Assembly: GCA_019635285.1 (NCBI GenBank) | Contig: JAHBZS010000014.1 | Location: forward strand, 1 to 64,000 | DNA: 64,000 nucleotides | Source: Rubrivivax sp. | GTDB taxonomy: Bacteria > Pseudomonadota > Gammaproteobacteria > Burkholderiales > Burkholderiaceae_C | Reading direction: 5' to 3' | Part shown: one piece after another, positions 40,515 to 51,802 of the stretch | How positions within the stretch are numbered: position 1 is the stretch's first letter | Layout of the letters: every line of letters begins with the position of its first letter | The notes under the pieces: model-generated | Seen by the model: the letters and a program-made list of their open reading frames with translations, nothing else | The model's database searches: none | Told to the model about the DNA's origin: nothing | Program-made: the position numbers and the translations under genes

Positions 40515-41396
40515 TCAGCCGTTCTTGCGCGAAGAACGACGGGCCGCGCCCAGCGAGAGCAGCGCCAAACCGACCAGCGCCAGCGAGGTGGGCTCAGGCA
40601 CGCTGTTCACCGCGAAGATGATGTTGCCCGAGCCAGAGCCCTTTGCCAGCGGCGTCACGTTGGTCGTGATGCGCGTCTCGCCACCAGCAACAGTCCACGA
40701 CGTGCCGTTACCACCGGTCAGCGGCGTCCCCGTGGCCGAGGCCGACAGGTCCACGTCGAACGGCACCGGCGCCTGCCAGAAGCCACCGATGCCCGTCGTG
40801 CCAGCCGCCGGCACGAAGTCCAGCAACGCATTGAAGGTCGTCGTGGCCACGTTGCCCGGGCCGATCTGCGCCTGACCATTGATGGCCGTGTTCAGCGTCG
40901 CCGTGCCCAACTGGAAGTCCGTCGCGTCCGGAGTGATACCGAACAGATTGGCGGTCGTAGGCGTCGTCGGATTCACGCTACCGGCCCCCGGGCTGCCCCA
41001 CAGCGTCGCCGTGACGCTCAAGCCCGACAGATCTGCGCTGAAGAAGTTGGGGGCGAGCCACGAACCTGTCCCCGTGATCGTGAACAGCGCATAGACGTTG
41101 TATTTCTCAGTCACGCCGGACACGGAATTGGCGGCGCCGGAGAAGCTCTCCACCAGCAGGAAGCCAGTCTCCGTGAAGTTCCTGGTGGCGCCCACCGAAG
41201 GCGAGCCAGCAATTCTCAGCAACGACGCGAAGTTGGTCGTCGCCTTATCGGTGTCGAACGCGCCGTTCGACGCGCTGAGGGTACCCGCACCGCCATTGGT
41301 GGCCGACGGGTTGAGGGTCACGGTATCGGCGAACACGTTGGTCGCCATCGTGGCCCCAGCCACGCATGCGACCATGGCCAGTCTGTTGAGTTTCAT
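40515..41396 (-). CDS. PEP-CTERM sorting domain protein (PepA-like)
   Basis: A 293-residue exported protein. It has a Sec signal peptide (KLNRLAMVACVAGATMATN, cleavage near VFAD). The body is Gly/Ser/Thr-rich and low in Cys and Lys. It ends in a complete PEP-CTERM signal: VPEPTSLALVGLALLSLG then an Arg-rich tail. This is the expected substrate of exosortase A. The pattern of the body, including YNVYALF and the end SGNIIFAVNSVPEP, resembles the flocculation-associated PEP-CTERM protein PepA, though I cannot confirm this. It is preceded by a sigma-54 promoter and an inverted-repeat box, and PrsR, encoded at 45281, is a sigma-54 activator. Expression is thus probably PrsK/PrsR controlled. Confidence 0.93.
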   Translation of the reverse strand: MKLNRLAMVACVAGATMATNVFADTVTLNPSATNGGAGTLSASNGAFDTDKATTNFASLLRIAGSPSVGATRNFTETGFLLVESFSGAANSVSGVTEKYNVYALFTITGTGSWLAPNFFSADLSGLSVTATLWGSPGAGSVNPTTPTTANLFGITPDATDFQLGTATLNTAINGQAQIGPGNVATTTFNALLDFVPAAGTTGIGGFWQAPVPFDVDLSASATGTPLTGGNGTSWTVAGGETRITTNVTPLAKGSGSGNIIFAVNSVPEPTSLALVGLALLSLGAARRSSRKNG

Positions 41397-48903: not shown

Positions 48904-50034
48904 TTAGGCGTCGATTCCTTCGCGATCGTCGCCCCGCACGGGACGACGACTGCTTCGCAGCTTGTGCCACAGATGGGGCACGAGCCGGCGCAACGGCAGG
49001 CGCCGCAGATGGTAGCGCGTGAGCAGCAGCGTGGCGGCCATCGACTGCATCGGCCGCCAGCGGCCGTCTGGTTCGATGGGCAAAAGCACTTGCCCGAACA
49101 ATGCAAGCAGCCCCGCCCGACGCAGGCGCCCGGGGCCGATGGACTCCACCGTGCGGATCGTCGCCTGCGGAATCGGCGTGCCGAACCATCGGACACAGAA
49201 ATGGCAGGCCAGCGCCAAGGGCTCTTCCAGCCCCAGTTCGCCGGCGCGCACAGGCAAGTCGCGCAGGAATGACGGGTCTGCGCCGAAATGCCTGAGCAGG
49301 TTGTCCAGATCAGCCAGGTCGCGAATGCGGTCGCGAAACTCCGAATCGAAGAACAAGTGCGCCGCGCTGTGCAGCACCTGATCCAGAGGTTGCAGGACCT
49401 GCCAGGGCGCCAGTTTCGACGGCCTCGTCGCGGCAAGCAGCCTGCCGGCATCGACGGCTGCATGTGCCATCGACGGAAGGATGTTGTGATGCAGATCCAG
49501 CTCCACCATGAGCAGCGGATGCGTCATCGGCGGCGCTTCGTGGCTCCATTCGTAGTAGTAGCGCAGATCGTGGCTGTCCAGGGGTTTTACGTTCCACCCC
49601 GCGCGGGCCAAGCGCTCCTGTGCATCGGCGAGGTGCACCTTGGGCACCAGCACGTCCAGGTCGGAGGGCAAGCGCCCGACGCCCAGCGGCAAGCCCTGCC
49701 CGATGTAGGCGGCGCCCTTGAGCAAGACCCGCGGGTACGGCGCATCACCCAGCGCCACCGCCACACGCTCCATCGTCCATAGCACGGCCGACGTACGCCA
49801 CCGGGACAGGCGATGCTCGGCCACCAGGTGCCGGCGCACTTGTGGGGGCATGTCGTCCAGCAAGCCCGCAGCCAGCAGGCCCTCGGCCAGACGGCCCAGA
49901 AGGCGCGTGCGCCTTGCCAGTCGGACCACCCGCTCCCATTCGGTCGGCGTCCAACCCTTGGCAAGCAAAGGATCCCGCAAGGCCTGCAGCCACGCCAGCT
50001 GTTCGGGCACCAGGCGCTGCGTTGCGTTGGTCAC
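48904..50034 (-). CDS. Nucleotidyltransferase family protein (NTP_transf_5)
   Basis: A 376-residue protein of the minimal nucleotidyltransferase superfamily. YPRVLLKGAAYIGQG precedes the catalytic strand RLPSDLDVLV, giving Asp125 and Asp127, and a third acidic strand is LLMVELDLHHNI. Such proteins occur beside lasso-peptide and other RiPP genes as well as EPS loci; substrates are mostly unknown. GTG 50034 is chosen because it shares GTGA with the stop of the kinase gene upstream, replacing an overlapping start at 50073. It is the last gene of a four-gene coupled operon. Confidence 0.85.
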   Translation of the reverse strand: MTNATQRLVPEQLAWLQALRDPLLAKGWTPTEWERVVRLARRTRLLGRLAEGLLAAGLLDDMPPQVRRHLVAEHRLSRWRTSAVLWTMERVAVALGDAPYPRVLLKGAAYIGQGLPLGVGRLPSDLDVLVPKVHLADAQERLARAGWNVKPLDSHDLRYYYEWSHEAPPMTHPLLMVELDLHHNILPSMAHAAVDAGRLLAATRPSKLAPWQVLQPLDQVLHSAAHLFFDSEFRDRIRDLADLDNLLRHFGADPSFLRDLPVRAGELGLEEPLALACHFCVRWFGTPIPQATIRTVESIGPGRLRRAGLLALFGQVLLPIEPDGRWRPMQSMAATLLLTRYHLRRLPLRRLVPHLWHKLRSSRRPVRGDDREGIDA

Positions 50035-50990
50035 ACCGTAGCCGCCGAGCGACGTTCGATCACCTGCGCCCATGCACCGTCAATGGCAACGAGCGCATCT
50101 TCCAGGTCGCTGTATACCAATTGCCAGGCTGGACATGCCCGCACCAGACGCACTGCAGCCTGGAAGCCCGCGGCGCCGAGCAATGCATAGTTGAAGGCAT
50201 TGAAGGCCAATGCCGGGAATGCGACGTGCTCGGCGATGGGCTCGAGACGGGTTGCGCTGCCGGCCTCCCAGCGCGGCAAGATGATGGCGCCTGGCCGGGC
50301 GCCCACGTGCCTGCGCGCCACGGCTTCGGGCTGTGGCGCCAGATGGGCCACCGTGCCTTTGCGGGTGTTCGGAAAGGCGGGCCCGAGCACGGCTTCTGGG
50401 GTGAACTGCCGAATCACTCCTATCGATTGATTCTTCAGCGCAACCGGCTTCAAGATGGCGCGAAATTCTGCCCGCGCCGGATCGAAAGCGCCAAACTCAT
50501 CGGACAGCAGGCGCCAGCCGCGCTGCGACAGGGCCGCCGTCAGCGTGCTCTTGCCGGATCCGGGCAATGCCGGGAGCAACAACGCCAGACCATCTCTCTC
50601 CAGCGCGCCCGCATGCAGCAGCAGCAGATCATTGAGGCGGCGACCGATCAGCCAGTTGCAACCCCACTCGTACAGCGGCAGCGGTGCGCCGGCGGGAAAC
50701 GGGTCGAAGGGCCGCTGGCCGTCGCAATGGAAGACGACCTGCGGGTTGATCCACCGTCGATATCCGACCGGACGGCGTACATCGACATGCAAGTCAGCCC
50801 AGTCTGCTCGATCGACATACGGAAACTGCCCATAGACCGAGCGCAGTTGTGTGGCGAACGGCCGCGAGTCGCTGCGCGTGCGAATGGTCGCCGCGCCCAC
50901 ATCGATCCACAGGCCATCGCCCGCCAACGCACGAGCGACCTCAGCCGCTTCGACCTCAGCCAGTGTGCGACGCGCCCCGGCGGCGCTCAC
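50031..50990 (-). CDS. HprK-related kinase A
   Basis: A 319-residue P-loop kinase related to HPr kinase/phosphorylase. The HprK-like block begins at HAGALERDGLALLLPALPG (His126) and runs into Walker A GSGKST at residues 144-149, followed by an SDE acidic strand (LLSDEFGAF). It fits the HprK-related kinase A family, whose members travel with a PqqD-like partner. True HprK acts on the PTS protein HPr, but there is no HPr gene here and the N-terminal region differs, so the target is more likely a protein made by this operon. It is joined to both flanking genes by GTGA overlaps. Confidence 0.9.
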   Translation of the reverse strand: MSAAGARRTLAEVEAAEVARALAGDGLWIDVGAATIRTRSDSRPFATQLRSVYGQFPYVDRADWADLHVDVRRPVGYRRWINPQVVFHCDGQRPFDPFPAGAPLPLYEWGCNWLIGRRLNDLLLLHAGALERDGLALLLPALPGSGKSTLTAALSQRGWRLLSDEFGAFDPARAEFRAILKPVALKNQSIGVIRQFTPEAVLGPAFPNTRKGTVAHLAPQPEAVARRHVGARPGAIILPRWEAGSATRLEPIAEHVAFPALAFNAFNYALLGAAGFQAAVRLVRACPAWQLVYSDLEDALVAIDGAWAQVIERRSAATV

Positions 50991-51277
50991 CGCGCCACGC
51001 AGTCATCGGGGCGCTGCTCGCGCGCCAACCCAGCCTCAATCAAACGCGGCCAGCATGCCTCGACGATCTCGGTAAGCGCGTCGACTGCCAGGCCGGTGTC
51101 TGCCGCCAGGCTCATACACACAGACTCGGTGCTCGCGGCGCCCAAGCTGAGGACCTCCAGAATCGAAGCCGATTCGTCGTTGAGCAACGACGTTTCGCCC
51201 GTCGCGGGACTGTAGGCCGCCCAGACATGACCCACCGGCTCGATCAGGACACCGTCCCTACGAGCGTAGCGGTTCAT
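50987..51277 (-). CDS. HPr-rel-A system PqqD family peptide chaperone
   Basis: A 96-residue PqqD-like winged-helix protein. VGHVWAAYSPATGETSLLNDESASILEVL is split by the turn typical of PqqD (the leader-binding strand followed by the N-D-E-S-A helix), and the C-terminal helices follow. PqqD domains hold the leader of a substrate peptide for a modifying enzyme. Here the enzyme would be the HprK-related kinase encoded next, and the substrate may be the small exported protein encoded three bases upstream. Confidence 0.9.
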   Translation of the reverse strand: MNRYARRDGVLIEPVGHVWAAYSPATGETSLLNDESASILEVLSLGAASTESVCMSLAADTGLAVDALTEIVEACWPRLIEAGLAREQRPDDCVAR

Positions 51278-51280
51278 CGA

Positions 51281-51802
51281 CTAGGCTAGGACATTGATCG
51301 AAGCCCAGCACGACGCGGCGACAGCGGTGCCGCCGGTCTCTATCCCTTGTATCCCGATGATCTTGCCGTCGGCGCCGACGCGGACAGCCACATACTGGCC
51401 TGTTCGCACCGGGCTGGCTGACCCTTTCGTCGGCGTCGACTTGACCACATCCTTGGCTTTGAAGTCCGACATGGTCGAGTTCAAGCATTGCCACTGCGTG
51501 CTGCTGAGATAGGGGTCAGGCGTATCGCTCGCCTTCAGAAAGTTCAGGTCATTGCCCCAGACCCAGGTGCTCGTTTTGCTACCGTTGGTGAGTTTCCACA
51601 CCTCAACGCGGACCCAGGTGCTCGTATCGGCCGGGGCATTGACGGGGTTCGCCACCGCATTGGCCAGACACTGCTGATTCGAGGCCGCCGCATAAACACT
51701 GCCGCTGCATAGCGTCAGCGCCGCTGGCGCGGCAAACGCACCGCGAATCAACCTGCGCCGCGCAGCAGTCACAGCGGTGCGGTCTGTCTGATCATTGTTC
51801 AC
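51281..51802 (-). CDS. Small Tat-signal protein, possible substrate of the HprK-related system
   Basis: A 173-residue protein of no family I recognise. The N-terminus has a twin-arginine motif (RRRLIRG at residues 15-21), an Ala/Leu core and a cleavage site near SVYAA (about residue 38). The mature part, roughly 135 residues, is rich in Thr, Ser, Val and Trp, with three Cys (CLA, CLN, CWA). The C-terminal third is Gly-rich. GTG 51802 has an AGGGAG ribosome site and removes an unlikely leader from TTG 51841. It is the first gene of the operon with the PqqD-like, kinase and nucleotidyltransferase genes, which suggests it is their target. Confidence 0.78.
   Translation of the reverse strand: MNNDQTDRTAVTAARRRLIRGAFAAPAALTLCSGSVYAAASNQQCLANAVANPVNAPADTSTWVRVEVWKLTNGSKTSTWVWGNDLNFLKASDTPDPYLSSTQWQCLNSTMSDFKAKDVVKSTPTKGSASPVRTGQYVAVRVGADGKIIGIQGIETGGTAVAASCWASINVLA

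Follow-up and report, generated by a model that had tools for sequence, protein, structure and literature searches.

The nearest studied system to the one described here is that of the linear polyphosphorylated peptides (LPP) of Bacillota (Popov et al. 2026, Nat Commun 17:6633; PMC13381572). According to the part of that paper available to us, the kinase LppK phosphorylates Ser3 of a core adjoining the leader that is bound by a recognition element (RRE) for ribosomally synthesized and posttranslationally modified peptides (RiPPs), and this Ser carries up to four phosphates. In the phosphorylated lasso peptide pseudomycoidin, PsmN is required for the hexose on phospho-Ser, although the review concerned leaves room for a host glycosyltransferase (PMC9266682, available text). 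In bufferins and other MNIO-modified RiPPs, a signal peptide takes over the position of the leader and may, in the authors' speculation, be masked by a partner protein until modification is complete (PMC12452194, available text); lipoprotein signals are also on record (PMC12636315, likewise in part). Here, we describe a four-gene operon in a 64,000-nucleotide stretch of DNA (the window) from Rubrivivax sp. (assembly GCA_019635285.1, contig JAHBZS010000014.1, positions 1 to 64,000) that encodes a small protein with a predicted twin-arginine translocation (Tat) signal, a PqqD-like protein, an HprK-related kinase, and a nucleotidyltransferase. We postulate, with a probability of about 0.6, that this is a RiPP-like protein modification cassette coupled to Tat export, in which PqqD-guided phosphorylation of the Tat cargo would be followed by a nucleotidyltransferase step. 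From its sequence, the cassette appears to be a variation on RRE-guided phosphorylated RiPPs in which a Tat signal would serve as the leader.

The operon lies on the minus strand, spanning positions 51802 to 48904, and its open reading frames (ORFs) run in the order Tat protein, PqqD-like protein, kinase, and nucleotidyltransferase. The cargo gene, P0001 (51281..51802), has a GTG start and encodes a 173-residue protein that was recognized by its ORF and by a signal profile. A 3-base gap separates it from P0002 (50987..51277), which encodes a 96-residue PqqD-like protein of the RRE type, assigned by family score and by the position and profile matches of its relatives. GTGA overlaps of 4 bases join P0002 to the kinase P0003 (319 residues; 50031..50990) and P0003 to the nucleotidyltransferase P0004 (376 residues; 48904..50034). 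An earlier note, made from the letters of this DNA alone, had described this coupled arrangement, and the ORFs and family matches confirm it: P0003 scores 343 bits against HprK-related kinase A (TIGR04352; cut-off, 200 bits) and P0004 147.9 bits against NTP_transf_5 (PF14907; cut-off, 31.2 bits). The kinase A and PqqD pair (TIGR04352/TIGR04353) carries the NCBIfam name “HPr-rel-A system”; we know of no assigned function for it.

The cassette and LPP have in common a discrete RRE, judged here by PqqD families and position, an HprK-like kinase, and an NTP transferase. They differ in the size and kind of cargo and in hosts, which are Pseudomonadota here and Bacillota for LPP. LPP precursors are 35 to 200 residues long, with a conserved N terminus and a variable C terminus, and are often found in polysaccharide loci; their leader carries a YxxP motif, an SpI peptidase is dedicated to them, and their exporter is MsbA-like (PMC13381572, available text), whereas the cassette would use a Tat signal as leader. 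Genes for an SpI-like peptidase and an MsbA-like exporter are absent from the four-gene operon, and none were seen by eye in 18 recurrent neighbor groups, with no profile search aimed at them. Phosphorylated lasso peptides of the paeninodin/pseudomycoidin type resemble the cassette in having an HprK-like kinase, a nucleotidyltransferase, and an RRE. Unlike them, the four-gene operon has no cyclase or B2 peptidase (the genome outside the operon was not searched); the earlier note had likewise seen no cyclase or protease, and family scans of the operon returned none. The cargos here are proteins of 65 to 228 predicted mature residues in which the modified site is probably N-terminal, whereas the lasso site is C-terminal, and the kinase has a His-Lys-Asp-Glu set where lasso kinases have His-Lys-Asp-Asp (PMC9266682, available text). 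Bufferins, like the cassette, have a signal peptide where a leader would be expected, but theirs is a Sec signal, and they use an MNIO oxidase with a DUF2063 partner (PMC12452194, available text). The available texts contain no word beginning with “Tat” (PMC13381572), no “kinase” and no words beginning with “Tat” or “twin” (PMC12452194), and no “Tat” or “twin-arginine” (PMC12636315), and we found no paper on this cassette in the open-licence literature.

To follow the four genes across genomes, we used matches to TIGR04352 above its cut-off, which were found in 50 of 300 genomes of the order, 41 of 369 in a class sample, and 51 of 299 in a phylum sample (the samples overlap), and in none of 14 control genomes. 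The hosts found are Pseudomonadota; no search was aimed at other phyla, where weaker relatives may have been missed. Our set of 130 loci comprises the window, 49 other loci from the order (L053, with a kinase below the cut-off, was left out), and 80 named loci, the best 80 of 363 that were confirmed among at least 592 matching stretches. Rubrivivax rivuli KYPY4 and Duganella sp. Root336D2 are examples of isolates with the set. It holds 124 distinct kinases, as six loci duplicate a kinase already counted, and counts are uncorrected for relatedness.

A Tat-type signal was found beside nearly all of these kinases. A signal peptide profile built from the window and 38 order loci, where it matches by construction, matches a protein in 127 of the 130 loci, in 126 of them above 15 bits (the other, L158, scores 11 bits; E, 0.1). 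Among the 91 loci outside profile building, 88 match, 87 of them above 15 bits. The profile found nothing in L036, L110, and L137; a Tat-type protein is visible by eye in L036, and the DNA of L110 and L137 starts about 500 to 680 bases ahead of the kinase. The cargo gene lies upstream on the same strand in 119 loci, downstream of the nucleotidyltransferase gene in 6 (L050, L034, L067, L075, L081, and L082, with the PqqD gene of L050 there too), and downstream on the opposite strand in 2. PqqD-like proteins were identified by profile in 126 of 130 loci and as similar-looking ORFs by eye in the remaining four. The nucleotidyltransferase is present in 129 of 130 loci, the exception being L099, whose contig ends there, and it comes after the kinase in all 49 order loci. 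Fifteen of the 129 fall outside a strict window of −400 to +150: in 11 the ORF start seems to have been called upstream of the true one, those of L083, L046, and L114 lie 225 to 652 bases further on, and the match in L093 is on the other strand. Given these frequencies (49/49, 126/130, and 127/130 for the nucleotidyltransferase, PqqD, and Tat proteins, respectively), the association of the genes is not due to chance.

The pattern held in further genomes. In 20 genomes of the phylum sample, mostly from other classes, 18 had a signal match, a weak one of 10.5 bits in the case of L228, and among 53 new distinct kinase loci, which partly overlap those 20 genomes, 48 had a match at an E value of ≤0.01. 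The earlier note had proposed that the small Tat protein belongs with the kinase and PqqD genes, an idea that it would abandon if the protein were absent from most loci with that pair; the protein is present in most of them, so the proposal stands. As judged from these sequences, the small Tat protein is a regular component, and the four genes are one system.

The system's signal peptide is also distinguishable from ordinary Tat signals. When a 32-position profile from 44 signal peptides was run on its own against 150 whole genomes (taken as handles G000 to G149, an assumption from the numbering), the top 19 matches (E, ≤9.7e-5) all adjoined the kinase, which is the basis for this conclusion; only the window's own peptide among the 44 is known to come from these genomes. 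The next match (G064; E, 1.5e-4) and later ones lie elsewhere, except for a cargo in G092 at 0.0046. By handle number, 25 of the 150 genomes are kinase positive, so six cargos were missed at an E value of ≤9.7e-5.

P0001 itself has the features of a Tat substrate, a twin-arginine signal and an AxA site, and the genome encodes TatC. The predicted signal occupies residues 1 to 38 (AARRRLIRG...APAALTLCSGSVYA; 51689..51802), a stretch matched by the signal profile, and the cleavage site was inferred from the AxA pattern. The arginine pair is present in all 44 aligned signal peptides. The predicted mature protein (51284..51688) has 135 residues, including Cys45 and Cys165, and no Pfam or NCBIfam family was assigned to the window protein; 28 GYWK-type cargos also lacked matches in both databases, as did 18 window-type mature sequences in NCBIfam.

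By sequence, the mature parts of the cargos fall into at least two unrelated kinds. We sorted 120 distinct cargos into 45 that are window-like (kind A/C) and 75 that are GYWK-like or other, by pattern first and then by moving 10 rows manually, using the C-terminal motif or GYWK/LN features and not Ser as criteria. Alignment rows were picked by hand from the named loci plus the window (18 of 31 available for alignment A2, 28 of 41 for A3, and 44 of 72 for A4). Window-type sequences (A2) are 19 to 29% identical to the window protein, and their sole invariant residues are C7, C127, and S130 in mature numbering. GYWK-type sequences (A3) have invariant C4, S8, S12, P29, W39, and L122. The N- and C-terminal Cys residues of the 45 window-type cargos are both present in 26 and both absent in 17, with the first only in 2 (Fisher P of 1.6e-10, uncorrected for relatedness). 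Because the two are present or absent together, a Cys45-Cys165 disulphide is probable.

The kinase phylogeny tracks cargo kind: a FastTree tree of 120 kinases requires 2 changes of cargo kind, against a mean of 36 with shuffled labels, and none of 500 shuffles was as low. The GYWK domain was found in 36 of the 300 order genomes, with a match at the kinase locus in 32 of them. It occurs elsewhere in G108, G184, G245, G067:C65, and a second place in G088, and four of these five occurrences lie in frames of more than 1,000 codons, namely, open frames of 1,046 to 2,888 codons in G088:C22, G067:C65, G108:C33, and G184:C43.

Both enzymes are conserved at the positions expected to matter. Kinase residues H126, G144, G146, K147, T149, D164, and E165 are identical in all 130 kinases; they include the Walker A motif G144-S-G-K147-S-T149 (50544..50561) and D164-E165 (50496..50501), which with H126 would form a catalytic set of the HPr kinase type. 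The best solved relatives of the kinase profile are HPr kinases (1jb1; E, 2e-4), and the His, the Walker A motif, and the Asp line up with theirs. In the nucleotidyltransferase, D125, D127, and D180 (ORF numbers 138, 140, and 193) are invariant in 129 of 129 sequences. D125-x-D127 (49654..49662), recognized by pattern, presumably binds metal, as in the nucleotidyltransferase superfamily, and D180 is a third acidic residue. The presumed catalytic residues of both enzymes are thus intact. PqqD-like proteins in the place of P0002 pass the TIGR04353 cut-off of 35 bits in L043, L061, and L114 (59.6, 53.5, and 76.5 bits), and in L052 PqqD and kinase form a single natural chain, with a PqqD part below the cut-off (29.9 bits). 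The genome has a second PqqD-like frame at G000:C34:30893-31090, slightly under the Pfam cut-off (22.2 versus 23.4 bits).

A candidate site emerged when the 45 window-type cargos were aligned on 13 signal columns alone, with the remaining columns left free. The expected −1 site is Ala in 40 of the 45, a Pro in the signal is kept in all 45, and the third residue past the predicted cleavage site is Ser in 41; among the four exceptions, L046 is shifted, and in the other three the Ser comes one position sooner. Ser frequency over the other first 30 mature positions is 7.4%. The same fixed profile, applied to 19 new cargos, placed Ser at this register in 16 and one place off in the other 3. L194, L196, and L201 have the AxA site one position off but keep the spacing between signal core and Ser, as would be expected if a ruler were set from a bound leader. 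On this evidence, the corresponding window residue, Ser41 (mature residue 3; codon at 51680..51682), is the most likely phosphorylation site, and we infer phosphorylation and a nucleotidyltransferase step with Ser41 as the specific candidate residue.

We propose that the cassette works as follows. The PqqD-like protein would bind the Tat signal at its hydrophobic part, in the way that leaders are bound by other RREs, guarding the cargo against premature export and presenting the residues right after the signal to the kinase. The kinase would add one or more phosphates to Ser41; in GYWK-type cargos, the phosphate may be placed on one of the two invariant Ser residues past the N-terminal Cys. 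The nucleotidyltransferase would then attach a nucleotide or sugar to the Ser phosphate, after which Tat would export the folded, modified protein and signal peptidase would take off the signal.

Several observations weigh against this scheme. P0002 scores 30.1 bits against TIGR04353, under the cut-off. The [Y/W]xxP leader motif of lasso and LPP RREs is absent, as the consensus of the 44 signal peptides shows neither Y nor W at that point. Deletion of LppN, the nearest studied nucleotidyltransferase, had no visible effect in a heterologous host (PMC13381572, available text). Five of the 53 new loci had no signal match at an E value of ≤0.01: L208 and L209, which are 3.8-kb loci, L228, and L225 and L230, which were the two of the 20 phylum-sample genomes with no cargo recognized nearby by the signal profile. 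The stretch past the cleavage site is generally rich in Ser/Thr, and in 32 of 45 cargos the residue just ahead of the Ser41 position is either Ser (18 cargos) or Thr (14 cargos). GYWK-type cargos have no Ser at this register. Two other Ser residues are also conserved, one in a C-terminal CWxS motif, equally to Ser41, and one inside the signal (column 8; 30/45 window-type and 66/75 other cargos).

The first of these Ser residues leads to an alternative that we consider unlikely, namely, that the same cassette acts at another site, the kinase phosphorylating Ser168 (codon at 51299..51301) in the C-terminal S-C-W-x-S motif. C127 and S130, the mature positions of this motif, are invariant in 18 of 18 rows, and lasso kinases modify a C-terminal Ser (PMC9266682, available text). 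A site so distant would, however, leave the fixed Ser register beside the leader unexplained, and the motif is not seen in GYWK-type cargos (A3). It may instead be structural, because its Cys co-occurs with the N-terminal Cys (together or absent in 43 of 45).

Tat exports folded proteins, and Tat enzymes carry cofactors. This background and the intact DxD motif would suit a different hypothesis, in which a prosthetic group or nucleotide is joined directly to a cargo that is itself an enzyme or carrier and requires the group before export. We regard it as improbable: the cargos are highly divergent, share few invariant residues, which is not what an active site would show, and fall into two unrelated kinds. 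If the group sat on a phospho-Ser, this hypothesis would overlap with the phosphorylation scheme that we prefer.

The conserved Ser within the signal raises the still less probable idea that the kinase targets this residue (TLxS; Ser33 in the window) to time export, with the mark lost at cleavage. Its conservation extends to both cargo kinds, but 15 of 45 window-type cargos lack Ser in this column even though the kinases keep their catalytic residues, and there would be no point in a nucleotidyltransferase step on a peptide that is then thrown away. That the cargo is merely cotranscribed while the kinase has HPr or some other cytosolic protein as its substrate is very improbable, despite the kinase family's resemblance to HPr kinase, as the cargo is linked to the kinase and cosegregates with it, P0003 has no match to TIGR00679 (HPr kinase/phosphorylase) at an E value of ≤1, and the genome has its own separate HPr kinase gene (TIGR00679, 322 bits; cut-off, 240), which makes HPr an unlikely substrate, a point in favor of the earlier note's reading.

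In the window, the operon is flanked by EpsB_2 and PrsK genes and sits between a TIGR03013 glycosyltransferase gene and prsK/prsR/prsT, inside an XrtA/PEP-CTERM locus. The same locus encodes PepA, a flocculation-associated PEP-CTERM protein (40515-41396; NF033554, 81.2 bits; cut-off, 80). The exosortase/exopolysaccharide setting claimed in the earlier note is correct for the window but is not general. Among 50 neighborhoods of about 7 to 8 kb on either side, PrsT-like neighbors were identified by eye in at least 16 and EpsB-like neighbors in at least 11, counts that are lower bounds because several neighborhoods end at contig ends, and other cassette loci repeatedly adjoin housekeeping-looking genes. 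A trypsin-like protease gene, also identified by eye from sequence, is near the cassette in 14 of the 50. In L213, L220, and L221, a TPR-sulfotransferase gene (PF13469) lies between the kinase and nucleotidyltransferase genes, which suggests a further modification step in that lineage.

More tentatively, and at less than even odds, we propose that the Tat signal doubles as a RiPP leader: the PqqD-like protein would mask the signal and set a molecular ruler to the Ser just after it, so that folded cargos of unrelated folds would acquire a nucleotide or sugar, linked through phosphate, while still in the cytosol and before Tat export. If true, this would be a general system with swappable cargos for secreted proteins decorated with phospho-glycans in Pseudomonadota, and it would explain how premature export is prevented. 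A named kinase/PqqD pair would gain a substrate family and a testable residue, and RRE-guided modification would extend from peptides to folded Tat cargos.

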